Below are positions 1-36,135 of a stretch of DNA of 39,395 nt, piece by piece. Below the pieces are notes generated by a model that made no database searches, was not told the DNA's origin, and saw nothing but the letters and a program-made list of their open reading frames with translations. This stretch comes from a virus: positions 1 through 39,395 of the IMG/VR virus record IMGVR_UViG_3300046534_000589; one strand, written 5' to 3'. Both the position numbers and the translations under genes were made by a program. Every line of letters starts with the position of its first letter. Position 1 is the first letter of the stretch.

Positions 1-3000
1 CTTGTACTTTAGCTCGCTGCTCATTACTCAATACATCGTTCATGAAACTATCTATAGTTTCTCTGCCTTCTGGAGTAAATAAACCGTTTTTACCTTTAAA
101 AGCTCTACGAGTTAAAAAATGAGATAATTCATGAGATGCAGCACTTACGGCGCCGTTTTTTAAAGCTTGATCTCTATTAACTAATATTACATTTTTATAA
201 GTTTTACCTTTTATTATCATGGTTTCTTTAAACACAGCATCTGATGTATTATTAAATCCATTTTCTGCAGCTATATCTATGTAATCTCCTTCTGGTAATT
301 CCCTAAAATCTACATCTAAACCTGGAGCTTCTTTAGCCACATAATCTATATCAGCTTGATATTCTCCAACCTCTATTTCTCTACCTTCACTTCCGAGCAT
401 CATCATCTCTTTACCTAGCTCGGTTATTCTTATATTATTCTCTTGTATTTGAGGCTTGTATATTACATCTAAACTAGGATTGTCTTGTATTTTTTGCAAC
501 ATCTCTAAGTTTTGTGTTTTTATTTTTCTAGCATCTAATATTTTTCCAAGAAATAAATCTTTTTTAGCTTGTATTTGCTTTGACTCTCCTTTAAATTGTT
601 TATTAGCCTCTATAATAGCCTCTGAATATTCACCAAACTCTTTTTGCATTAAAATAAAAGCATGAGTATTTCTTTCTATGCCCATTTTTTCAGCCATAAC
701 AAGGTTTAAAGCTTCAACTGGAGTTCTAAAGTTGTATCCATTGTTTCCATCAGATACTGGTGTATCAGAAAACTTACCTATTTCTTTTAAATCTTTTACG
801 CTCAGCTCTTGCCCTGATTGTATTTTTTTACTTATAATATCAATCTTAGCTTCAGTTGTTTTTTGATTATTAGTTTGTGCAGCTATACTTTTCTTAGCTT
901 GAACCACGTTGTTTTGTGTATTTAAAACGCTTGCTGCTAGTTTTAAAGCTTCAGTCTGTTTCTTAACTTCAGGAGAGTTCATTCGCGCTGAATTCATTTT
1001 ATCAACGCCAAGCTCTTTCATTTTATTATTTAAAGCTTCTGCTATTTCTCCTGGGCTACTAAACTCTTTTACACCTAAAGTTTTAGATGCTTCTACTGTT
1101 TTTTGAGTTCTACTATCTATTGCTAATATTCTATTTTTAACGTCAGTGACTACAGATCCTCTCATGCTTAATGCAGAAAAAGCAACAACATCACCTACTA
1201 ATTGATCTATATCTGTTAAATGCTTCATTGATTCTTTGAAGTCTAACTCATCTTGTTCAGTTTTGTTACTTGAGTACCAATTAATTCCTATATTAAGACC
1301 TTCAACACTTTTAGCTACACTAGTAGCTGAAACACCACCCAAGACCATTCTACCCGCAGCATTAGTAACAACACCAAGTCTTGTTCTAGCAAACTCTGAA
1401 AAATAAGGTAAGTATGTTAAAGCTGCTTTTTTAGTCATACCAGCTACAGCACTATTACCAACACCAAAAGACACCGCGTCTGTGTTTGATATTTTTTCTC
1501 CGTTCCAGAGAAATCCACCAACCTCATTAGCAACATTCATAGTTATAAGTTCTTTAGTAGCACCGCTAAGCACGTTGTAAGTTCTTTTAACAGCTTGTGA
1601 TTTACCTGAACCCATACTTTTAAAAAGCTTATCAATACTTGCTAAAGCAGGCTTCACACCATACATTTTGCCTCCTGCTTTAACTTTAACTCCTTTAGAT
1701 GCATATATAGCCATAAGCAATGGAGCTATTCCACTTAAAGCATCTGTAGATATTTCTGGTATACTTGAATTGTTAACACCTTTATCTAATATAGTCTGAT
1801 CAACTTGAAGGCCCGTGCTTCTAATAGCTTCTGCATAAACTGCTGCTGCTTCAGTAGGGCTACCGCCTACGTCTCCTAGTTCTCCAAAAGAGTCTGTTCT
1901 TAAATAATTTTCACCAGTAATACCTTTTTGAAGTCCAGCTAAACCTCTAGCAAGTAAAGGAGCTTCTTCTATTGTCATTAAGTTAGAATTAAGCTTAATA
2001 GCTCTATCTAAAGCAAGCAACTCAAAAAAAGCTTCATTGTGCTCTAAAGCTAGTGGATTTTTAGACATTATTTTAGTAATGTTTTTTCCTATAGATAAAA
2101 AATCTTTTTTTCTACCTGCATCAGAAACATCATCTAAGGCTCTATCTTTAGATCCAGTAAAATAATTTATTATATCATTAACAAAACCTTCATCTGTTTC
2201 TTTTATATCTTCATTATTTTTAGAAATATTCTCATCAATTGCTAGTAATTTAAAAAAAGCTTTTTTCCTAGCTTCTATTAAAACATCTACAGTAGGTGCT
2301 TTATCTTGAAGAGCATCAGTTTTTTCTTTAACTAAAGCAATATCTCCATCGCTTAAACCCATATCCCCTTCCTCTAATGGTGGTATAATGTTTTTTTCGT
2401 CTATAGAAACACCTATTAAATTACCATTTTCATCATAAGCCTTGTCTCCTGCATTAGCTTCTTTTCTTAATATTTTTTCTTTTAGTTTTTCAGATAATTC
2501 TCCTGTTTTTTTGTATTCATCAAATATTTTTCTTTCAGAAGTTGTAAACTGTCCTTTATCAAATCTTTTTGTAAATTTATCAATAGTTATTTGAGCGCCT
2601 TCAGATAATTCTCCTGTTTTATAATAAACATTTAGATCATTAGCTTTGGAATCTTTATTTTTAAAGTTATTTAAAATAGACAAATTTGCTTCAACAAAAG
2701 CATCTTCATCTACAGCTAAGCTATTACGTATTTTTGAAGCAGATCTATTATTTAACTCTTTACGTATAGGCGCAAGAATATTGTTAGGATCCACTTCTTT
2801 TGGATTACCAAATATATTTAAATCTTCAGTATCTACCATAACAAAACCACTACCTTGACTTTCAATCTTGCTCTTGAATCTACCAGGATAATACTTCTCT
2901 AACTCTTTAAATCCATCAGCATCTACAAGCTCAAATGGATCTTTTTTATCTTCATTATTTGGGTCTTGTTTTTCTTTGGTTTCTGCATCTTGTATTATCT

Positions 3001-3547
3001 TGTATATAGCTGGATTACTAGTTACATAGTCATCTAGATAAGCTTTGTTGTAATTATCTGAAGAACTAACTGTGTAATTTACGTTTGGATCTTTTATTAA
3101 ATCTTCTTGATCTATTTCAATATTAGCTTGAGTATTAGCCTTTACGTCTTCAGACAATAGTCCAGTTGGATTATTGTTTATAGGCGCTTTTTCTTCAGGA
3201 TTAGCTTGACTATATTTCCACTCTTTATATGCTATTTTCTCTTCACTGTATTCAGGTAAAGTAGAATAATAAAACTCTCCTTTATTAGGATTAAAAGGTT
3301 GTTTTTCATCTGGTGAATCCAAAAAACCACCTGCCAATGTTGATTCCGTAGCTGCTAACTGTTCTGTCGCCACAGGTGCAGCATTCTCTACAACGACTTT
3401 CTCCTTTTTTTCAACAACTTCTTCAGTTTTTAATTGTCCACCTACTGTAGATATATACTCTTCAACTTCCATTTCAGATGCCGCAGCAGCTTCTTGAATT
3501 TCAGATAATGAAATTTCTTCTCCGTCTATAATGTAAACTTCTTCCAT
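1..3547 (-). CDS. Giant internal-virion-like protein with HExxH zincin motif (3' end beyond window)
   Basis: An open frame starts at ATG 3547 and stays open to the window edge, giving at least 1182 residues; the C-terminus is missing. The N-terminus (MEEVYIIDGEEISLSEIQEA) is a short acidic segment that I recall from the front of very large marine-phage virion proteins. The middle is rich in Lys, Glu, Asn and Ala and mostly helical-looking. Near residue 1139 the sequence AASHELSHFLTRR gives a zincin HExxH (H1139, E1140, H1143); the third ligand would lie just downstream or outside the window. Its place after the tail genes and its size suggest an ejected internal virion protein or polyvalent protein with a peptidase domain, perhaps for crossing the cell envelope or processing virion proteins. 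The peptidase call rests on one motif. The start lies 2 bp downstream of the end of the 615-aa gene. Confidence 0.8.
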   Translation of the reverse strand, partial: MEEVYIIDGEEISLSEIQEAAAASEMEVEEYISTVGGQLKTEEVVEKKEKVVVENAAPVATEQLAATESTLAGGFLDSPDEKQPFNPNKGEFYYSTLPEYSEEKIAYKEWKYSQANPEEKAPINNNPTGLLSEDVKANTQANIEIDQEDLIKDPNVNYTVSSSDNYNKAYLDDYVTSNPAIYKIIQDAETKEKQDPNNEDKKDPFELVDADGFKELEKYYPGRFKSKIESQGSGFVMVDTEDLNIFGNPKEVDPNNILAPIRKELNNRSASKIRNSLAVDEDAFVEANLSILNNFKNKDSKANDLNVYYKTGELSEGAQITIDKFTKRFDKGQFTTSERKIFDEYKKTGELSEKLKEKILRKEANAGDKAYDENGNLIGVSIDEKNIIPPLEEGDMGLSDGDIALVKEKTDALQDKAPTVDVLIEARKKAFFKLLAIDENISKNNEDIKETDEGFVNDIINYFTGSKDRALDDVSDAGRKKDFLSIGKNITKIMSKNPLALEHNEAFFELLALDRAIKLNSNLMTIEEAPLLARGLAGLQKGITGENYLRTDSFGELGDVGGSPTEAAAVYAEAIRSTGLQVDQTILDKGVNNSSIPEISTDALSGIAPLLMAIYASKGVKVKAGGKMYGVKPALASIDKLFKSMGSGKSQAVKRTYNVLSGATKELITMNVANEVGGFLWNGEKISNTDAVSFGVGNSAVAGMTKKAALTYLPYFSEFARTRLGVVTNAAGRMVLGGVSATSVAKSVEGLNIGINWYSSNKTEQDELDFKESMKHLTDIDQLVGDVVAFSALSMRGSVVTDVKNRILAIDSRTQKTVEASKTLGVKEFSSPGEIAEALNNKMKELGVDKMNSARMNSPEVKKQTEALKLAASVLNTQNNVVQAKKSIAAQTNNQKTTEAKIDIISKKIQSGQELSVKDLKEIGKFSDTPVSDGNNGYNFRTPVEALNLVMAEKMGIERNTHAFILMQKEFGEYSEAIIEANKQFKGESKQIQAKKDLFLGKILDARKIKTQNLEMLQKIQDNPSLDVIYKPQIQENNIRITELGKEMMMLGSEGREIEVGEYQADIDYVAKEAPGLDVDFRELPEGDYIDIAAENGFNNTSDAVFKETMIIKGKTYKNVILVNRDQALKNGAVSAASHELSHFLTRRAFKGKNGLFTPEGRETIDSFMNDVLSNEQRAKVQ

Positions 3548-23640: not shown

Positions 23641-25866
23641 TTATTTTATAATTTTTGAAATGCTACCTTTATTGTCATATCTTTTAAAGCCAAGATAAAC
23701 AGGTTTTATTTTTCGATCAGCAACAGGTTTGTATCTGTTCTTGTTGCAAGCCATAATAGATAAACCAGAACTTATAGTAGCATCATGCTTTGTTCTATTG
23801 TTTATATTAAATACAGCCCAATCTTCTAATGTTTTTTGAAGATACATGTCTCCATATTCTTCATTGTTTAATCCTACATATTCTTCAATATAAGACTCTA
23901 CCGCAGCCGCGTGAGCTTGCTTAATGTCTTCACTTGAATTAGGTATTCCACCAATTTCTTTTTCTGTTGTAGATAATTTATTCCAAACTTTATCAGGTCT
24001 GTTCATTGAAAAACCTCTATAACCTCTACGTTTGAAATAATATAACAATCTAGGTTTATTATTCTCACATAATATAGGCATACTATAAAAAACACAAGCC
24101 ATCAAAACATCTTCAAAAAATATCTCCGCTGTGTGTGGTCTTGATATATATTCTAAAAAAAAGTGATTAGGTGGCGCATCTTCCATACTAAATTTAGTTA
24201 AACCATGCAAAGCCCCATTAGAGCCTTTACCATCTACTGTTCCTGATATATCATAACTATCACATCCAAAAGCACCTATGTGCTCATTTCCTGGATATTT
24301 TGTTTCATTTTTTATTATTATTTTGTTTTGTAAATTACTTGGTGGAACCCAAGTTATTAAAAATCTACCATTTTTGTCAGGAACAAATTGTACTGATGTA
24401 TCTTTAACTCCATTTTTCCAGATAAATTTACCTTGAGTAACGTTAGTAACGTTATTAAACTCCTGGTTATAATCTATTTGTTGATATATTCTAGTTAAAT
24501 TAAATAAACTTTGTTTAGACTCGTCTCTAAAAGCGTGTTGTTCTGTTCTTGGAAACTGTCTGTAGTATTCGTTTAAACTATCTTGATCAGACTTTAATCC
24601 TTCAACTTCGTTTTGCCAGTGTTCAATAACGCCTGTTGTAATGTCGTAACCGTCAACGCCTTTGACGCTATCTTTTTCTCTAATAAAAACAGGTGATCCG
24701 TAAGTATCCATGAATCCTTCGTAGTTCCATTCCATAGGGACGAACAAAGAATAGAGTCCAGAAGAAGTTTGTCCATTTCTATTTCTTTTTTTAACGTCTG
24801 AATTATAGTATAATTTTTTGAAGTTGTTTCCACCCTTGTCTAATGCATTTGAAGTTGAGCCCATCATACACTTGCCTACGATTCTTGATCCTAGCCTTAA
24901 TGTAGTTTTTGTAACTCTCCAGTTATTCAATATGTTATCAGGTCTTTCCCATTTACCACTTTCATCATGAGCTAATAGCTTTAGCTTTTCACCATCGTAA
25001 GAGTTGTCGCCTGTATTTTTCCAGTCAATAGTTGTATCAAGCCCATCAAGTTCCCTTAATTGCTCATTACTTTCAAGCTTTCTTCTAGTAAGTTTTGAAG
25101 CCGGAACCCTATACGCCAGTTCTGTCTTAGGACGATCCATACCGTCTTGGATCGGCTTGAAGAAAAACGGATAGTTAACGGATATTGGCACGACTTTATC
25201 TGTGAACATTTTTTTAGCATCTGATCCAGATTTAGATAATATACCGAATCTGGCGTCACTGGATATTGTCGCTTGATTAACAAGTTCTGCTGAGGACATA
25301 AATGAAAATCCAGACCTTCTGTTTTTAAGGTAGCACATACCGTAACATCTGTTATCTGCTTTGCATGCTTCCCAAAATATATAGAATAGTCTATTTGCTT
25401 CTCTATAATCTGGTGCTCCAACGTCAATTTTTGACCATTGCAAGTACATGTAATGAGTACCAGTAATGTAAGTAGGTAAACCTTTATTATAGAACCAATA
25501 ACCCTCATCTCTTCTTGTAAATTCTTTATCAATATAATCATACCACTTTTCTTTAAACTCAGTGCCGTGATCTTCCCAATCAAACCTAGATTTAATTCTA
25601 CTTAGTTCTTTTGGGTATTCTTGCTTTTCCCATTTTTGATCAACTTTGTTTTCGCTTCGTTTAAACGGTTCATTTGTTGTTGGTAAAGCAATCCTGAGAT
25701 TTTGTATTTCAATGATTTGTCCAATTTGTCCAGTTTTACTTATTACTATAAAATCATAATCAGAGTTATAACCATACTCCCATTTTTTGAAACGATTTTG
25801 TTTCTTTAATATCTTAGGATTAATTAAATCCTTAACCTCTTTCCAAAGAGTTTGCTCGTAACTCAC
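23641..25866 (-). CDS. terL: Terminase large subunit
   Basis: This 741-aa packaging motor carries the ATPase and nuclease signatures in order. A Walker A-like KNRRSGFS is at residues 181-188, an arginine-rich variant of the P-loop common in phage terminases. A Walker B with catalytic acid reads LLAHDES (D301, E302). The C-terminal nuclease half opens with GAFGCDSYD (D536, D539), the likely first metal-binding acid of the RNase H-like fold, and a later KHDATIS contributes another Asp. The segment FYNKGLPTYITGTHYMYLQW, then DYREANRLFYIFWEACKADN, matches my memory of terminases in crAss-like and marine relatives. The start overlaps the stop of the small-terminase-like gene by ATGA, and portal follows after 2 bp. 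Confidence 0.93.
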   Translation of the reverse strand: MSYEQTLWKEVKDLINPKILKKQNRFKKWEYGYNSDYDFIVISKTGQIGQIIEIQNLRIALPTTNEPFKRSENKVDQKWEKQEYPKELSRIKSRFDWEDHGTEFKEKWYDYIDKEFTRRDEGYWFYNKGLPTYITGTHYMYLQWSKIDVGAPDYREANRLFYIFWEACKADNRCYGMCYLKNRRSGFSFMSSAELVNQATISSDARFGILSKSGSDAKKMFTDKVVPISVNYPFFFKPIQDGMDRPKTELAYRVPASKLTRRKLESNEQLRELDGLDTTIDWKNTGDNSYDGEKLKLLAHDESGKWERPDNILNNWRVTKTTLRLGSRIVGKCMMGSTSNALDKGGNNFKKLYYNSDVKKRNRNGQTSSGLYSLFVPMEWNYEGFMDTYGSPVFIREKDSVKGVDGYDITTGVIEHWQNEVEGLKSDQDSLNEYYRQFPRTEQHAFRDESKQSLFNLTRIYQQIDYNQEFNNVTNVTQGKFIWKNGVKDTSVQFVPDKNGRFLITWVPPSNLQNKIIIKNETKYPGNEHIGAFGCDSYDISGTVDGKGSNGALHGLTKFSMEDAPPNHFFLEYISRPHTAEIFFEDVLMACVFYSMPILCENNKPRLLYYFKRRGYRGFSMNRPDKVWNKLSTTEKEIGGIPNSSEDIKQAHAAAVESYIEEYVGLNNEEYGDMYLQKTLEDWAVFNINNRTKHDATISSGLSIMACNKNRYKPVADRKIKPVYLGFKRYDNKGSISKIIK

Positions 25867-27971: not shown

Positions 27972-28424
27972 TTATTTATTTATTTTTGTTATTTTTTCAG
28001 CACCACGACTTCCGAAGTATGCTACGTAAACTGTTATTAATAGTGTCTTTAATAAAGTTATCCACTCTTCATCTACATTAAATTGTAAATGAAAAGAATC
28101 AATAGCCATCATAAACACCGCAGAAGTTGTTAAGAATATAAGAGCTAGCGGACGAGTGTTTTTAGAAAGCCATGAATCACTTTTCATATCGCTTCTCCAT
28201 CTACTAGATACTTCTTTTATTTCAGCTATATCTTGTTCTATAAGTTTCATAGCTTGTTCTTTGTCAACAGCCTTAATCTTATTATCACTTGATATAATAT
28301 TTTTTACTATACCTAGTGTTCCTTGATCAGGTAATATATCACCTAATGCAGCTAAAACTTTAGGAGCTTTACTTGATAAAAAAGCTCCTATTTTAGTTTC
28401 TTTAAATGATTTTTTGTTAGTCAT
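27972..28424 (-). CDS. Holin-like membrane protein (3TM/GTA-holin style)
   Basis: The 150-aa protein has a soluble N-terminal half (residues 1-85) and two clear membrane helices: about 92-110 (PLALIFLTTSAVFMMAIDS) and about 121-138 (WITLLKTLLITVYVAYFG), followed by a short basic end (GSRGAEKITKINK). The N-R/T-R-P-L before helix 1 and VAYFGSRGAEK after helix 2 match the GTA/3TM holin family as I know it; a third hydrophobic patch (LAALGDILPDQGTLGIV) may be a peripheral helix. It would permeabilise the inner membrane to let the amidase reach peptidoglycan. The start shares one base with the preceding stop (TAATG). Confidence 0.75.
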   Translation of the reverse strand: MTNKKSFKETKIGAFLSSKAPKVLAALGDILPDQGTLGIVKNIISSDNKIKAVDKEQAMKLIEQDIAEIKEVSSRWRSDMKSDSWLSKNTRPLALIFLTTSAVFMMAIDSFHLQFNVDEEWITLLKTLLITVYVAYFGSRGAEKITKINK

Positions 28425-29311
28425 TATACTTTACTTGTAAATTCAGTTTCAACTTTTGGTAAATCATTTTCAGGGCTAGCTGGACGGCTTGTTCCTTTTT
28501 TTTGATTTACATACATCATGTTTCCTTGGGCATCTTTCATTGCAGTTTCACCTTTTCTAATCCCTTCACCAGACTTAGTATCAACAATACTACTTCTGCC
28601 GGCACCTTTTTTATTTATTTGATTAAGACCTTTAGCTTCTTGCTCTGCTATTGTTAATGTTTCGGCACCCATTTTACCTTGCTTAGCTCTACTAGCTAAA
28701 ACCTTAACATCGTGCTCGTCTTTGAGCTTTTGCAGTTTTTTACCTTTTACGTTTTTAAATCCAAAAGAATCAGCTTTACCTGTTAACGCTTTAGATAATT
28801 TCATCGCTCTTTGTGTTTCTTGTGGAACAAAAACTTTATCTCCTTTACCAGCTATATAATCTTGAGTTTTAGGTTTAGGTTTAGGATTTTCTGTAGTAGT
28901 AATAATTTCAGGTGGTTTAATTTCATCAGGAACAAAAGTTCTATTTTGATCTTTTAGTTTTTTATTTGCTTTGTACTCTTCATATTCATCAGGATGATCA
29001 TCCCAGTATTTTTGAGCCTCAGCTGGATCTACTCCTGCTTCTGCATAAGTTCTACCTTTACCTTCTCCCTCTAAATAGTTTATTGTTTCTGTTCCACCAT
29101 CAACTTTATTAGTTTCTGTTCTAACAACTTTCATATTAGCTTGAGCTTCTTTTTTAGCTTTAGCATCTGCTTTCTTTTGTTCCTCGGTTTTTTCATCTCC
29201 TGGTCCATTACTATAAGCCATTGTATTGCCACTAGCTTTAAAAGGACTATTATTTAATAGCCCTTTAATTTTTAAAACATTTGGTCTTTTATTTCCTAGT
29301 TTAAACGCCAT
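28424..29311 (-). CDS. Lys/Glu-rich disordered phage protein, 295 aa
   Basis: Not recognised as a named family. It starts MAFKLGNKRPNVLKIKGLLN; the opening MAFK is shared with the zincin gene nearby. The rest is low complexity: Lys, Glu, Ala, Asn and Thr, with a Pro/Lys linker around ENPKPKPKTQDY and no hydrophobic core long enough for a stable fold or membrane helix. The C-terminus is also basic and Gly-rich. It sits in a run of similar charged proteins between the endolysin and the holin. Its stop overlaps the holin start (TAATG). Possible roles are DNA or RNA binding or a disordered virion cargo; neither is shown. Confidence 0.55.
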   Translation of the reverse strand: MAFKLGNKRPNVLKIKGLLNNSPFKASGNTMAYSNGPGDEKTEEQKKADAKAKKEAQANMKVVRTETNKVDGGTETINYLEGEGKGRTYAEAGVDPAEAQKYWDDHPDEYEEYKANKKLKDQNRTFVPDEIKPPEIITTTENPKPKPKTQDYIAGKGDKVFVPQETQRAMKLSKALTGKADSFGFKNVKGKKLQKLKDEHDVKVLASRAKQGKMGAETLTIAEQEAKGLNQINKKGAGRSSIVDTKSGEGIRKGETAMKDAQGNMMYVNQKKGTSRPASPENDLPKVETEFTSKV

Positions 29312-29313
29312 GC

Positions 29314-30348
29314 TTATGAGTTCATGTGTTTAGAAATAATAGATCCGCCTTTTCTTTTTGCAGGTTTTTGGCCAATAGGAGCTTTTCCCATTGTCATTGG
29401 AGCTTTTCCCATTGTCATTGGAGCCATTGACTTCATATCGTGCTGTGCATTTTTAGCATAATTGTTTCTAGCTGATTGACTTAAGTTAGAATTAGAAGCT
29501 TCTTTAATATCATAATTTATTTTTCCTTTAAAGTACTTAATTGGTCCACCAGACATTTCAGTTGGTGACTCACCGGCAGTAGCCATAGCATCTTGAGAAT
29601 CCATTTGGTCAAAAGATTTAAAAGTAGTTGGAGCTCCTGCTGTTTTTAAAGTTTCTTTATCAGCTTTCTTAGTGAGTTTTGTTTTCTCATTTTTAAGTTT
29701 TTTGCTTTTTTTATCAGTTTCATCTTCAGCTTTTCTTATATCACTTTGTGCTTTTTCCTTGTCTTTTCCTCTTACAGTCTTGTTCTTTGGATCGGCATAA
29801 TATTTATCTATTTCGTTTTTTTCATTTGATTTAGCTGCATCTGATTTTTGAGTTAATCTAGCTGCTTTTCTGCTACCAGCAGCTTTTATAGATTCTTTTT
29901 TAGCAGTTTTTTCAGCTTCTTTATCAGCTCTACCTTCAGCTTTATTGGCTTTTTTATCATCTCTAGCCATTTCTCTATCTTTTTTTCCAGCAGATCTTTT
30001 AGCTTGCCTTTTTAAACCACCTTTTAATCCAGACTCTTTAGCTGCTTTTTTATTTCCACTTTCTATAGCTTTTTTAGCTTTATCCATAGCTGTTTCTTCT
30101 TTTACTACAACTTTCTCTTCTTTTTTTACTACAACTGGCTTTTCAACTTTTGGTTCTTTTTTCACTATAACTGGCTTTTCAACTTTTGGAGTTACAGGTC
30201 TATTTGTAGGGCCTTTTCCGTAGGCTTTGTTTATTTTATTTTGAGCAGCGTTTTGAGCTGACTTATCACCAGATTTTTTAGCTGCAGCTCTATTTTTAAT
30301 ATAAGAATCTAGGTTTTTATCTTTTGCTTTTGCTTCCGCGTATCCCAT
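29314..30348 (-). CDS. Lysine-rich, repeat-containing protein, 344 aa (start revised)
   Basis: The longest frame begins at 30411, but that would overlap the end of the preceding zincin gene by 59 bp. The in-frame ATG at 30348 (MGYAEAKAKDKNLDSYIKNR) lies just after that gene's stop and follows an AAATAAAA leader, so I prefer it. The protein is strongly basic, mostly Lys, Ala, Glu and Asp, with imperfect PKVEKPV[IV]VKKE repeats (about residues 55-90) and a long AKK/AEK coiled or disordered middle. Near the C-terminus PMTMGKA is repeated twice in tandem, mirrored by a 21-bp DNA repeat. Composition resembles nucleic-acid-condensing histone-like or disordered proteins. Function unknown. Confidence 0.55.
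   Translation of the reverse strand: MGYAEAKAKDKNLDSYIKNRAAAKKSGDKSAQNAAQNKINKAYGKGPTNRPVTPKVEKPVIVKKEPKVEKPVVVKKEEKVVVKEETAMDKAKKAIESGNKKAAKESGLKGGLKRQAKRSAGKKDREMARDDKKANKAEGRADKEAEKTAKKESIKAAGSRKAARLTQKSDAAKSNEKNEIDKYYADPKNKTVRGKDKEKAQSDIRKAEDETDKKSKKLKNEKTKLTKKADKETLKTAGAPTTFKSFDQMDSQDAMATAGESPTEMSGGPIKYFKGKINYDIKEASNSNLSQSARNNYAKNAQHDMKSMAPMTMGKAPMTMGKAPIGQKPAKRKGGSIISKHMNS
29378..29419 (-). repeat. Two tandem 21-bp repeats inside the lysine-rich gene
   Basis: The unit GGAGCTTTTCCCATTGTCATT on the plus strand occurs twice back to back and encodes a seven-residue repeat read as MTMGKAP on the minus strand. It is in frame, so copy number changes would only lengthen the protein. Confidence 0.85.
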
Positions 30349-30352
30349 TGTT

Positions 30353-30715
30353 TTATTTTTTATTTGTTTTATATGCTTCTTGTTCCCAAGGGAAGCTAGG
30401 ATGTCCTTCAACTTTCCAAGTTCCTTTGTATTTTATTTTTCCATTTTTTCTTGGATAAGTTTCCCCTTGCCAAGTAACACTATCATTAGTGTAGTTTAAT
30501 CCTTTGCTTCCTCCGGATTTTTCAAAATCTTCAAATTGACCTACATGTATCAACTCGTGATCATCAACTTCTTTTTCTTGCTTAGGATCTTTAATATCCA
30601 TGTTCAATACTATAGTACCATTTTTGTTTGCTCTACCTAACACGCCTGGTTCTTCTTTTTTGTGATACCTAGGCGTATTGTCTATTTTATAAGGTGCTTT
30701 AATTTTAAATGCCAT
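30353..30715 (-). CDS. Small HExxH zincin-like metalloprotein, 120 aa
   Basis: The centre reads EVDDHELIHVGQFEDF: H53, E54 and H57 form a zinc-metallopeptidase HExxH motif, followed by Q60 (HExxHxxQ). Near the end, PWEQEAY places E113 where a third ligand could lie. The protein is short for a peptidase; its N-terminus (MAFKIKAPYKIDNTPRYHKK) and a beta-rich segment (GKIKYKGTWKVEG) complete a minimal domain. No signal peptide or membrane helix, so it acts in the cytoplasm or is carried in the virion. It lies among lysis and basic-protein genes. It could process virion proteins, cleave a host protein, or have lost activity and only bind metal. The motif is clear; the biological role is unknown. 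Confidence 0.7.
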   Translation of the reverse strand: MAFKIKAPYKIDNTPRYHKKEEPGVLGRANKNGTIVLNMDIKDPKQEKEVDDHELIHVGQFEDFEKSGGSKGLNYTNDSVTWQGETYPRKNGKIKYKGTWKVEGHPSFPWEQEAYKTNKK

Positions 30716-30724
30716 AGTATATTT

Positions 30725-31285
30725 TTAACAATTCCATCTTCTTCTAGCTGCTAAACCTCTTTTACTTTTCCACGACTTTGATCTAGCACAAAAAGCTTTT
30801 CTACGTTTAGCTGGTTTACTTCCTGGTTTTAATTCACTAGGTTTTTTAGTTACCGCAGTTTTTAAATTACTTTTTGGATTTTTAGCTTTGTATGAGTCAA
30901 CACCTTTTTGTGTCATGCCTCCACCTGCTGCAGCACCAGTACCGCTATCATTGGCTTTATTAAAGTTTTTACCTTTACCAATAGTTCTTCTTACATCACC
31001 TTTCTTTTTAGTAGGTGCTTTTTCACCACACTTTAAACTAGGATTAGCTACTTGTCTCCAGTCTTGTTTTACCCAGTCTCTTAACCCATTACTTTTAGTA
31101 CCAGTAACATTACTCTTACTAGATCTTTTATATTTACCTTTTGCTCCAGCAGATCTTTTAGCACTAACAACAGAAGATTTTTCACTATTGCTCATGCTTC
31201 TAATTTTAGCTAACGGTAAGCATACTTTTTTAGTGCCTCCGCCTTTGGCTTTTGTTTTTCTAACTTTTGTAAATGGTGATTTCAT
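30725..31285 (-). CDS. Very basic Arg/Lys-rich protein with C-terminal Cys/Trp motif, 186 aa
   Basis: The protein is dominated by Lys, Arg, Ser and Gly. A central block GLRDWVKQDWRQVANPSLKC is aromatic and may fold, and the C-terminus reads KRRKAFCARSKSWKSKRGLA, ending RRRWNC. I recall this Cys-Ala-Arg ... Trp-Asn-Cys ending and the WVKQDWRQV block from short cationic proteins of aquatic phages and giant viruses (the DUF5872/DUF6321 style), where the role is unknown; the paired Cys near the end may bind a metal. High positive charge suggests nucleic-acid binding or DNA condensation. The start directly abuts the preceding stop (TAA then ATG) and the small 45-aa basic gene lies just upstream. 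Confidence 0.65.
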   Translation of the reverse strand: MKSPFTKVRKTKAKGGGTKKVCLPLAKIRSMSNSEKSSVVSAKRSAGAKGKYKRSSKSNVTGTKSNGLRDWVKQDWRQVANPSLKCGEKAPTKKKGDVRRTIGKGKNFNKANDSGTGAAAGGGMTQKGVDSYKAKNPKSNLKTAVTKKPSELKPGSKPAKRRKAFCARSKSWKSKRGLAARRRWNC

Positions 31286-31423: not shown

Positions 31424-31779
31424 TATCTACGTTTTTTTGATTTTAATGCTAAAACTTGTTTAGCTAATTCATCTAGTTTACCATCAGTCTTTGTGCCATC
31501 TTTAACTAATGTAGAAAGCACTTTAATTTCTTCAGAAAGTATATCACCCACCTGCTCCATCATATCAACTCTTTCTTTTAGATCTTCTATATTAGCATGA
31601 TTCCATTGTTCTTTTAAATCATATTCTAATCTCTTAACCTCTGTAGGTGGTAACCTTTTAGCTAAATCAATATCATCTTGTAATGAATAATACATACCAA
31701 CTAAAGTTGTTGTTAACATGATTATACCTATTACTGTTTTTATATCAATTTTAAATTCTGTGTTTTCAGATATTTTCAT
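31423..31779 (-). CDS. Membrane-anchored coiled-coil protein, spanin-like (start revised)
   Basis: The longest frame begins at 31881 inside the amidase gene, but residues 1-34 of that reading are merely the amidase in another frame. ATG 31779 (MKISENTEFKIDIKTVIGII) gives a 118-aa protein overlapping the amidase by only 14 bp. It has one N-terminal membrane helix (about 14-33, TVIGIIMLTTTLVGMYYSLQ) and then a long heptad-like periplasmic coil (about 40-110, for example RVDMMEQVGDILSEEIKVLS). This shape fits an inner-membrane spanin or another lysis accessory protein, and the amidase neighbour supports a lysis role. No outer-membrane spanin lipoprotein was found, so the call is tentative. Confidence 0.6.
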   Translation of the reverse strand: MKISENTEFKIDIKTVIGIIMLTTTLVGMYYSLQDDIDLAKRLPPTEVKRLEYDLKEQWNHANIEDLKERVDMMEQVGDILSEEIKVLSTLVKDGTKTDGKLDELAKQVLALKSKKRR

Positions 31780-32176
31780 ACTCCTCTGTTGCATCAAATG
31801 ACGGGCATGCTTTGTTAGCAAACTCGTTGTGTGAATAAATAACTGCCTCTGGGTACATTGCTTTAAGTGTTTTAAGCACATTTAAGAGACTATCTTTCTG
31901 TTCTTGTGTTCTTGTATCCTTAGGGGTCTTACCATCAGACTCAACACCACCACAATAGCAAATTCCTATTGAGTTACGATTGCGCCCCTTGCAATGAGCA
32001 CCTATTTTATCAATATCACGACCTTTATTTATAGTTCCGTCTAAATCAATATAAAAATGATAACCTATATCATTCCAACCCTTAGCTAAATGCCAGTCTC
32101 TAATAGTATCTACCGAAACTTGTTGGTCTTCTCTAGTTGCGGAGCAATGTATAATTATTTCCTTTACTAATCTCAT
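31766..32176 (-). CDS. N-acetylmuramoyl-L-alanine amidase endolysin (T7 lysozyme-like)
   Basis: The 136-aa protein is a compact Amidase_2 domain with all key residues of the T7 lysozyme type: zinc ligands H10 (IIIHCSAT), H116 (YSHNEFANKACPSF) and C124, with catalytic Y39 (DIGYHFYID) and K122. Family members cleave the bond between N-acetylmuramic acid and L-alanine in peptidoglycan. Length matches the T7 enzyme, and no signal peptide is present, so a holin is needed; a holin-like gene lies about 3.5 kb downstream. T7-type enzymes may also bind phage RNA polymerase; that cannot be judged here. It is followed by an overlapping membrane-anchored coiled-coil gene. Confidence 0.93.
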   Translation of the reverse strand: MRLVKEIIIHCSATREDQQVSVDTIRDWHLAKGWNDIGYHFYIDLDGTINKGRDIDKIGAHCKGRNRNSIGICYCGGVESDGKTPKDTRTQEQKDSLLNVLKTLKAMYPEAVIYSHNEFANKACPSFDATEEYENI

Positions 32177-33899: not shown

Positions 33900-34334
33900 T
33901 TATCTTGTTTTATCTTTATTAACGTATTCTATTGATTTAGTTATTACTTTAAAACTATATCTATTTATATTTTCTAATTTAGTTGTAGGCATGTCTTCTT
34001 CGCCTAACATAATTCGGTACATGCGACTTATCAGCTGTTTGCACTTTATGGAAACTTTATATATATGATATTTTTGAGTGGTGTGGTTTCTTTTCCGCCA
34101 CACTGTAATCCACCCTTGTTTCAATAATCTGTTCCAGCGCCTATTATCCCAGCTGAATGAGTACGTACCTTTTTTAAAATCATCTTTAGTAAAAAAATCT
34201 ATAGCATCTAAATAGATTAGTAATTCTAAATCTGCATCATTTAATTCGTTTGTTTTACAAGCCCACTTTCTAATTATTCTATAATGTTTAAGTAAACCTA
34301 GTTCTTTTAAATCACTAGATGTTAACTTTCTCAT
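33900..34334 (-). CDS. Winged-helix-like protein in the chaperonin operon, 144 aa
   Basis: The start overlaps the groES stop by ATGA. After a helical N-terminus (TSSDLKELGLLKHYRIIRKW) comes a segment with helix, helix, then a beta hairpin: LNDADLELLIYLDAIDFFTK, YSFSWDNRRWNRLLKQGWIT and VWRKRNHTTQKYHIYKVSIK. This order resembles a winged helix-turn-helix such as MarR-type DNA-binding domains, with the hairpin HTTQKYHIY as the wing. Basic surface residues support nucleic-acid binding. Position right after groES could mean regulation of this operon, but phages also use such folds for structural or assembly roles. Assignment is by eye only. Confidence 0.55.
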   Translation of the reverse strand: MRKLTSSDLKELGLLKHYRIIRKWACKTNELNDADLELLIYLDAIDFFTKDDFKKGTYSFSWDNRRWNRLLKQGWITVWRKRNHTTQKYHIYKVSIKCKQLISRMYRIMLGEEDMPTTKLENINRYSFKVITKSIEYVNKDKTR

Positions 34335-34591
34335 AGTATAACAACGACATCATGCTCTTTAATAACTTTATATTCTTCTTTTTTTAATTCAATATTAAAT
34401 CCAGCAGCTTTGTCATAATAGACTTCATCACCTTTTTTTAATACTGATACATCAGAGCCAGGTTCTATAACCGTAGCTCTTCTATATCTAACATCTTCTC
34501 TTTGCTTTTCAGCTAAGATTAAACCACCTTTTGTAGTTACATCAGTTTCCTTGACTGGATTTATAACTATAAATTTACCTACTGCTTTCAT
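34331..34591 (-). CDS. groES: Co-chaperonin GroES
   Basis: An 86-aa Cpn10 subunit. It reads KAVGKFIVINPVKETDVTTK, then GGLILAEKQREDVRYRRATV, matching the first strands and a mobile loop with G-G-L-I-L where bacterial GroES has G-G-I-V-L. IEPGSDVSVLKKGDEVYYDK matches the roof and 'vkvGDeVlf' strand, and YKVIKEHDVVVIL matches the C-terminal strand. The hydrophobic mobile loop suggests it can still dock on GroEL. The protein is slightly shorter than bacterial GroES (about 95-97 aa). Its start overlaps the groEL stop (ATGA), so the two are coupled, but the order groEL then groES is the reverse of the usual bacterial operon. Confidence 0.92.
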   Translation of the reverse strand: MKAVGKFIVINPVKETDVTTKGGLILAEKQREDVRYRRATVIEPGSDVSVLKKGDEVYYDKAAGFNIELKKEEYKVIKEHDVVVIL

Positions 34592-36135
34592 GCTCTAATA
34601 TTGTTAATAACACAATCAGTAGATAATATAGTTGTCGCTACTGAGGCTGCGTTCATTAGTGCACTTTTAGTAACTAGCAAAGGATCTATAATTCCGGCTT
34701 TTACCATATCAACCGTATTTCCTGTAACCACATCTAGTCCCATGCCTTTTACTTTTGGAGTTTTATAATCTTCAACGCCAGCATTCTTAAGTATCAATTT
34801 ATAAGGCTCTTTAATAGCACAATAAAGTACTTCTTCACCTATTGACATTGGTTTTAATTGCTGTGCAGCGTTTAATAAAGCTATACCGCCTCCTGGCACT
34901 ATACCTTCTTTGATCGCAGCTTTTGTAGCACAAATAGCATCTTCTACTCTATCTCTTTTTTCTTTTAATTCCATTTCAGAGTTAGCACCAACTTTAACCG
35001 TAGCAACTTTAGCATTTAGTTTAGCTAGTCTTTTTTCTAGTCTTATTATAATATTAGGATTTTTAGTTTCCTTAATACTAGTTTCTAATAAAGATATTGT
35101 TTCTTTAACATCTTCGTTGTCACTTAAATCTACTTTTAATATAGTTTCTTCGTGATTAGTTATTGATCTTAAGCAATTACCTAGGTGCTCTGGATCTATT
35201 ACATCCATATCGTCGCCTAGGTCTTCATTAATAAGTGTAGCACCAGTCACAGCACATAGATCGGATAATACGTCTTTTTTGCTGATTCCGTATACTGGTG
35301 CATCTATAATGTTGACTTTTATATTCCCTTTTGTCTTATTCATAGCCAGCGCGGAAACTACCTGGGGGTCAACATCTGCAATGATAAGAAGACTCTTACC
35401 ATTTTTAATAATAAATTCAAGGACAGACTGAATCTTCCGCACATTGGGTATTACTGATTCTACGATTAGAACCAACGGGTTTTCAAGTTCAGCCGTTCCT
35501 TTTTCTTTGTTGGTAATAAAGTGGTTATTCTTAAGTGCTTGATCATATTGAACACCCTCTATTAACTCAACTACAGTATCTGGTTGTTCATTTGTTTCCA
35601 TCATAACAACACCTGTTTCATCTACTAATTTGAATGCTTGCCCTATAACCTTACCTAACTCCTTATCATTGTTTGATGATATGGTTGCAACTTGGTCTAT
35701 TTTGTTGCCTTTTACTTTCTTTGATGTTTTTTCTAAATAAGCTAATACTTTTTTAACACCTGAGTCAATACCTTCTTTTAATTCCCTTGAAGTACCTAAC
35801 TCACTATGTTTATAAGCTTCATCTAAAATAGCTTTTGCTAATACCGTAGCAGTTGTAGTACCGTCACCTGCATCTGATACTGTTCTTTGCGCTGCTTGTT
35901 TTATTAACGTAGCTCCAATATTTTCTAAAGAATCTTGTAACGTAACTGCATTAGCTACTGTTACTCCATCTTTTGTTATTTGTGGCATGCCATTAGCATC
36001 TTCTAATATAACACATTTACCACTTGCTCCTAAAGTAGATCCAACCGCGTTGGTTAGTTTTTCTACCCCAGCTAATATCTGACTTCTGGCACCATCACCA
36101 AAAGCCAGATTTTTAACTAACTTTATTTCTTGCAT
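34588..36135 (-). CDS. groEL: Phage chaperonin GroEL, 515 aa
   Basis: A full-length group I chaperonin with ATPase residues kept: D56 in TKDGVTVA, the DGTTT nucleotide loop at 91-95 (GDGTTTATVLA), D399 in RVEDA and the IVPGGGIAL motif. The RLAKLNAKVATVKVGANSE segment is also typical. Differences from E. coli: the C-terminal (GGM)n tail is missing, ending INNIRA; TLGPKG is TLGASG; and in the apical domain the Y199 and Y203 positions of E. coli appear to be Leu and His (QALKNNHFIT). These changes suggest adaptation to a narrow set of phage substrates such as the capsid or very large tail proteins. groES overlaps its stop. The leader before ATG contains ATTAA pentamers. Confidence 0.95.
   Translation of the reverse strand: MQEIKLVKNLAFGDGARSQILAGVEKLTNAVGSTLGASGKCVILEDANGMPQITKDGVTVANAVTLQDSLENIGATLIKQAAQRTVSDAGDGTTTATVLAKAILDEAYKHSELGTSRELKEGIDSGVKKVLAYLEKTSKKVKGNKIDQVATISSNNDKELGKVIGQAFKLVDETGVVMMETNEQPDTVVELIEGVQYDQALKNNHFITNKEKGTAELENPLVLIVESVIPNVRKIQSVLEFIIKNGKSLLIIADVDPQVVSALAMNKTKGNIKVNIIDAPVYGISKKDVLSDLCAVTGATLINEDLGDDMDVIDPEHLGNCLRSITNHEETILKVDLSDNEDVKETISLLETSIKETKNPNIIIRLEKRLAKLNAKVATVKVGANSEMELKEKRDRVEDAICATKAAIKEGIVPGGGIALLNAAQQLKPMSIGEEVLYCAIKEPYKLILKNAGVEDYKTPKVKGMGLDVVTGNTVDMVKAGIIDPLLVTKSALMNAASVATTILSTDCVINNIRA

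Follow-up and report, generated by a model that had tools for sequence, protein, structure and literature searches.

Zincin metallopeptidase domains are already known from phages. They have been published as parts of injected giant proteins, and the accessible sections of PMC5512222 name the zincin as the commonest domain of polyvalent proteins and propose that it processes the polypeptide, its role on injected phage proteins being a prediction of that work. N4 vRNAP, an ejected protein of about 3,500 residues, has an HExxH domain (excerpt of PMC12633501) and is nevertheless packaged unprocessed (excerpt of PMC5512222), a fact that argues against simple self-processing. SprT-like peptidases encoded as solo proteins in jumbo phages have also been published (PMC7824862, in the part available). 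The zincin fold and its presence on injected phage giants are therefore familiar; what appears to be new in the locus described here is the arrangement, in which one small zincin occurs free or fused within a single lineage. No description of a free late gene alternating with the C-terminal domain of a giant in one lineage was found among the titles and abstract openings listed by the literature searches.

The gene lies in a 39,395-base virus record, classed as linear, that was analysed over its whole length (the window). It occupies positions 30353–30715 on the minus strand, stop codon included, starts with an ATG preceded by an A/T-rich leader and encodes a 120-residue HExxH protein, assigned to a gluzincin-type zincin domain from the open reading frame, its homologues and an AlphaFold2 (AF2) model. 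The original prediction had placed this frame correctly, together with its length and residues H53, E54, H57 and E113; E111 is present as well. Neither a signal peptide nor a transmembrane helix is apparent, in agreement with the predicted lack of a secretion signal (best 19-residue Kyte–Doolittle mean 0.15). An HExxH motif appears in 0.9% of shuffles of the 120-residue protein; across the 38 genes of the window two are observed against 0.11 expected on shuffling (P of two or more, 0.005). Values of dN/dS of 0.07–0.14 against six close relatives indicate purifying selection; eight pairs were run, and L008 (mis-paired owing to an internal length change) and L014 (saturated at synonymous sites) were dropped. 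Promoter-like sites in the window show no excess (15, versus 15.2 in shuffles), and terminator-like sites number six, versus 2.9 in shuffles, all on the strand opposite the zincin gene.

The terminase large subunit of the window (23641–25866, minus strand; phrog_6681, E 1.7e-164) is 63% identical to that of MW202828 and about 45% identical to those of Flavobacterium 'elemo' phages, and also matches Cellulophaga, Maribacter and Tenacibaculum phages. On account of these terminase relatives the host is probably a flavobacterium. The zincin-carrying viruses form a large uncultured group whose hosts are probably marine Bacteroidetes. The domain is absent from MW202828, the nearest phage by terminase. 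A GroES- and GroEL-like pair, recognized by sequence, lies at 34331–36135 (minus strand) of the window, and in MW202828 an annotated groeL adjoins a 10-kd chaperonin subunit. The terminase match of another record (G052, locus L313; 28878–30896, minus strand) contains 26 in-frame stops, which may reflect decay, sequencing error or another code.

Conservation was assessed in 146 distinct homologous domains, chosen by profile hits covering both motif regions, a choice that favours conserved members. H53, E54, H57 and E111 are invariant in all 146; homologues without the HExxH residues, which would have counted against the original prediction, were looked for among these domains and none was found. 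HELIH (residues 53–57; 30545–30559, minus strand), in the helix spanning residues 44–66, would provide two metal ligands and the general base. PWEQEAY (residues 109–115; 30371–30391, minus strand) lies in the helix spanning residues 109–119 and includes W110 and A114, each kept in 144 of the domains, and E111 (codon 30383–30385). The proposal of E113 as a possible third ligand did not hold up as well as that of the first three residues: E113 is kept in 125 domains and replaced in 21, whereas E111 is replaced in none, and we have therefore reassigned the third ligand to E111 of the P-W-E-x-x-A motif, which on sequence grounds is the likelier candidate. We infer that the protein is a minimal gluzincin-type zinc peptidase domain, in which the metal would be bound by H53 and H57 from the first helix together with E111 from the other, and E54 would activate water. 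It is very unlikely that this is instead a zincin-fold structural or cargo protein that binds metal and lacks peptidase activity. N4 vRNAP, which keeps its HExxH domain and is packaged unprocessed (excerpts of PMC5512222 and PMC12633501), offers a precedent for such a protein, but pure zinc binding would not require the general base E54, which is invariant throughout.

The AF2 model, computed with the A1 alignment (pLDDT 86.4, pTM 0.75), contains both helices, with the HExxH helix (44–66) followed by five strands and then the helix (109–119) that bears E111. Foldseek placed IrrE first among PDB structures (probability 0.97, E 0.24) and minigluzincins next, with nothing at E 0.001 or better. 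VIA-align gave Z 6.4 for IrrE (3dte; 86 residues, r.m.s.d. 3.2), 5.1 for 6mdx, 4.5 for abylysin (4jiu), 4.0–4.3 for Wss1 and 2.7–4.5 for minigluzincin matches, the comparison with abylysin and selecase reaching at most 4.5 over 65–72 residues; all of these Z values are below 8 and, according to the tool, may mean merely a common arrangement. We take 6mdx to be Spartan. Lethal-factor structures also appear in the fold list and are no nearer than other zincins (Z 2.5–4.5, r.m.s.d. 5.5–6.4). Among viral predicted structures a 301-residue protein ranked first (E 2.8e-8), followed by a SprT-like protein (E 2.1e-4). Since the fold scores are modest, the gluzincin-type placement rests on the motif pair and the fold together. 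The Pfam model Peptidase_M78 (IrrE) does not match the window protein and matches seven of the 29 A1 members weakly (best E 0.004); the SprT-like Pfam model likewise leaves the window protein without a match and is found in two of the 29 (best E 0.007), and a Melnitz phage relative scores 22.4 against its cut-off of 25.6.

The position of IrrE as best fold match bears on a host-directed role, in which the protease, made late or injected, would cut a regulator or a defence protein of the host, much as repressors are cleaved by IrrE-type peptidases. Host proteins have been proposed as targets both for zincins on injected proteins and for those of jumbo phages (PMC5512222 and PMC7824862, in the parts available), and divergent relatives of the window protein in T4-like and jumbo phages sit in other contexts. 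No repressor-like or HTH gene was recognized beside the zincin, however, and its stable place is in late operons, where host take-over genes are less expected; we regard a host-directed role as unlikely.

A search of IMG/VR with the window sequence alone found 46 relatives, and profile A1 (29 sequences) found relatives at at least 574 loci, of which the best 80 were kept. No Pfam or NCBIfam model matches the window zincin, and the PDB searched with the A1 profile returned only fibrillarin-like chains (E 0.33 or worse). At E 1 or better, phrog_16532 matches all 29 A1 members (best E 1.3e-10), phrog_10499 19 of them (1.6e-10) and phrog_87 13 (9.1e-6). The window zincin itself reaches phrog_16532 at only E 0.059 and is therefore considered a divergent branch. 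PHROG 87 is a metallo-protease family and PHROG 16532 and 10499 are of unknown function; proteins of phages XacN1, pT24 and Melnitz match these last two strongly, share the HExxH and PWExxA pattern and are annotated as hypothetical proteins. The earlier remark that small phage zincins are poorly described is apt for these two families, but it passes over the published SprT-like peptidases (PMC7824862) and injected-giant zincins (PMC5512222), as far as the available parts of these papers go.

Among 50,697 phages the window zincin has no match at E 1, yet 89 of those phages have a related terminase. Two other members (L036 and L107) find distant matches in T4-like and jumbo phages, and the Melnitz relative finds further matches in cultured phages, one of them annotated 'WLM protease domain protein'; a match in an Ochrobactrum phage is annotated as ImmA/IrrE family. 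A search of 84,980 genomes gave nine zincin loci, all on MAG contigs, five of which (L139, L142, L143, L144 and L146) are labelled Sphingobacteriales, Flavobacteriaceae or Bacteroidetes and the rest archaeal, Aliivibrio or Alphaproteobacteria. A cellular origin of these loci is considered unlikely, the contigs probably being binned phage sequence.

The genes around the zincin agree with its earlier assignment to a lysis/accessory region, which is flanked by an N-acetylmuramoyl-L-alanine amidase, the endolysin (31766–32176; PF01510, E 4.3e-15; phrog_822, E 5.1e-60), and a holin (27972–28424; phrog_3427, E 3.2e-19), both on the minus strand. The immediate neighbours, also on the minus strand, are a DUF6321 protein upstream (30725–31285; PF19846 above cut-off, E 5.8e-8) and, downstream, a Lys/Ala-rich 344-residue protein (29314–30348) that starts four bases past the zincin stop codon, followed by a low-complexity 295-residue protein (28424–29311) with no PHROG match at E 0.1 and no Pfam match above cut-off. 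A close relative, G003 (90% identity in the zincin and 89% in the terminase), repeats the window order of amidase, DUF6321 protein, zincin, holin and terminase. The neighbourhood sample comprised 125 sequences, namely the window and 124 loci (three contigs entered twice). In 117 of them the zincin gene could be located, usually upstream of holin and terminase, and in 105 of these 117 a member of a cluster of proteins like the window holin is encoded no more than five genes away (some loci contribute two members). A small protein containing Cys is encoded immediately upstream of the zincin in 55 of the 117 and no more than three genes away in 62. A protein of about 50 residues with a GCGCKNRQ-like motif is encoded directly or nearly upstream of the zincin at L015 (4581–4724), where it has no Pfam match, and at 61 further loci. 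Four long zincin proteins (L350, L351, L352 and L353) have low-complexity C-termini ending in FDF, FDI or YDF. In G055 (L354, 2964–3350) and G069 (L355, 6399–6791) the zincin lies about 2.5–4 kb downstream of a giant gene, among lysis-type genes and far from the terminase.

Because the zincin gene is anchored near the holin, a lysis-accessory role was entertained, in which the peptidase would time or complete release by cutting an envelope protein, an inhibitor of lysis or a holin. The holin count argues for it, as do six records (G030, G031, G035, G037, G040 and G046) in which the domain is the N-terminus of a 369–670-residue protein directly before the holin, and the company of lysis-type genes that the zincin keeps downstream of the giant in G055 and G069. 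The lack of an apparent signal peptide or transmembrane helix counts against it, and G044 has an amidase and a holin and no zincin domain. The records in which the domain is fused to a giant, described below, also weigh against this role, and we consider it improbable.

The first gene of the window (2–3547, minus strand) is an open reading frame, cut by the record end, for the N-terminal 1182 residues of a giant protein that we propose as the partner of the zincin. Neither Pfam nor PHROG gives a match for it at the limits applied; its gene order is the same as that of the G003 giant, and its N-terminal 76 residues resemble the giant of L147 (E 5.9e-4). The protein has an HExxH motif of its own, HELSH at residue 1139 (119–133, minus strand), whose second metal helix is out of view because the motif adjoins the record end. 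As a query in eight solo records the window giant, whose own C-terminus lies beyond the record, gave no match, and the C-terminal region of the G003 giant was used as the query in its place. In G003 and G002 the giant closes the structural module, following genes shared with the tail-side genes of the window. For three complete giants Pfam yields nothing above cut-off; the G003 giant (L249) has a polynucleotide-kinase-like stretch at residues 2118–2296 (phrog_415, E 3.5e-6). An internal HExxH, besides any C-terminal domain, is present in 16 of the 22 giants read, the exceptions being G012, G016, G019, G021, G024 (cut) and G028. No record among the 50,697 phages matches the giant C-terminal region at E 0.01. 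By analogy, the size, position and enzyme-like parts of the giant fit the polyvalent proteins described in the accessible sections of PMC5512222, and its gene order and size suggest that it is an ejected virion protein.

Searching with the domain of one member (L044) revealed records in which the zincin is part of a giant. In six of these (G001, G002, G011, G012, G013 and G016) it ends giant open reading frames of 2051–2627 residues, and a seventh fusion (G098, L336) has an open frame of 2502 residues; the G015 fusion is cut inside the domain, that of G014 is frame-split, and L216 (G017) is another, shorter fusion. Eight giant-fusion records and G098 have one copy per record (that of G014 as two adjacent pieces), and two separate copies were found in no record examined. 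A comparison of 26 records gave one copy each, seven fused and 19 solo, with the giant C-terminal region in 24; this domain-first sample was selected on the presence of the domain. Giants were found for 17 of the solo carriers and read in 16 (all but that of G023). These 16 share the C-terminal region and end with other tails; the 15 other than the G003 giant are 44–60% identical to its C-terminal region over 373–394 residues. The domain is seen on the C-terminus of the giant in seven records and solo in the window. Cys/His knuckle tails (RCK...CxxH) take the place of the zincin at the giant C-termini of G022 (L258), G020 (L260), G025 (L261) and G024 (L262). Judged from these sequences, the giant C-terminus looks like an exchangeable slot. 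When 98 giant C-terminal regions are placed on a tree, a minimum of two changes is required to explain the fused state, the nodes concerned having supports of 0.28–0.77 and, in one case, 0.92; since several nodes are weak, the fusion events may number one or two. A smaller tree places the solo record G018 beside G001 and G002 (0.91).

Four of the fusion records cover the lysis region. In G011, G012, G013 and G014 the 10.6–12 kb upstream of the terminase contain an M15-like endolysin, assigned by eye, and further lysis-type genes, and no HExxH open reading frame. The last three of these records thus keep holin and endolysin without a solo zincin, the domain being on the giant, and G011 keeps the endolysin without a solo zincin, no holin homologue having been called there. 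The stretch in which the solo gene normally lies is missing from, or hardly included in, records G001, G002, G015, G016 and G098.

To avoid picking records by the domain, a scan was made with an alignment of giant C-terminal regions (A3), keeping the best 80 of at least 474 relatives. The domain is present in 43 of the 80: in 39 of the 50 longest records, all of which have a terminase, and in four of the 30 shortest, 20 of which have one. Among the 37 records without it, 34 miss the expected place: eight (G029, G038, G041, G042, G043, G047, G057 and G073) stop short of the region upstream of the holin, and 26 short records, assessed solely from where the terminase lies, either lack the terminase, have it cut or extend no more than 3.7 kb beyond it on the upstream side. 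Two more (G053 and G054) end 1–2 kb past the holin. The remaining record, G044, spans everything from amidase to terminase, includes the giant and is a real absence of the domain. As most misses are fragments, the gene is common where its place is visible, with one clear absence. The domain match in G048 consists of two adjacent pieces and that in G050 has one in-frame stop.

The conserved residues, the single copy per record, the occurrence of a solo form in some records and a fused form in others, and the C-terminal region common to the giants are best read as signs that the free zincin and the giant are parts of one function, free in most lineages and attached in some. We tentatively propose, at slightly less than an even chance, that the zincin works with a polyvalent-type injected giant, either processing it or being delivered jointly with it. 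The protein would be made late, probably in the cytoplasm, from an operon with amidase, holin and terminase; it would be packaged with the giant encoded at the end of the structural module, or would cut that giant. In this way it would trim or activate the set of injected proteins, either while particles assemble or once these proteins have been ejected into the next host. Some lineages instead carry the domain as the C-terminal part of the giant and lack the separate gene. The original prediction of a cytoplasmic or virion-packaged peptidase is partly supported: it holds for a small conserved HExxH metalloprotein, with a predicted fold that has an HExxH helix and a glutamate helix and with no apparent secretion signal, and does not hold for the ligand E113. 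The same domain at the C-terminus of giants that resemble polyvalent injected proteins lends indirect support to the virion-packaged alternative, in which the zincin would enter the virion. The partner reading has to accommodate the fact that most zincin copies adjoin holin and endolysin genes, far from the giant, and that G044 carries a giant and no zincin domain; because the giant C-terminus carries other tails too, fusion may mean shared delivery and not a specific partnership. A more specific form, possible but on balance doubtful, is that of a detachable peptidase, free or on a giant ejection protein that it matures or accompanies into the next cell, with the giant C-terminus acting as a docking slot for exchangeable small domains.

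An unannotated 120-residue frame has in this way become a testable candidate peptidase, for which four active-site residues can be named and a partner is proposed. If the partner reading is true, the family illustrates the gain and loss of peptidase domains by giant injection proteins, and its naturally occurring free and fused forms of a single domain could be used to probe the role of zincins on injected phage proteins.

Among known zincins, the N-terminal peptidase domain of IrrE/PprI is the best fold match, but the window zincin shares 13% identity with it and has no HTH or GAF-like domain. The SprT-like, Spartan and Wss1 group is similar in fold, as the 6mdx comparison indicates, and differs in that its Pfam model does not recognize the window protein. 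The minigluzincins abylysin, jannalysin and selecase are likewise soluble gluzincins of about 100 residues; they are archaeal, and the window zincin differs in a five-strand insert between its two metal helices. The MPTase domain of polyvalent proteins such as N4 vRNAP and P1 DdrB, as presented in the available part of PMC5512222, resembles it in having an HExxH helix, a glutamate on a second helix and a variable insert between them, and in being carried by giant proteins that are probably injected and whose genes lie close to those for the virion. In contrast to that domain, the one described here is mostly a separate gene near holin and terminase and forms the C-terminus of a giant in some lineages only.
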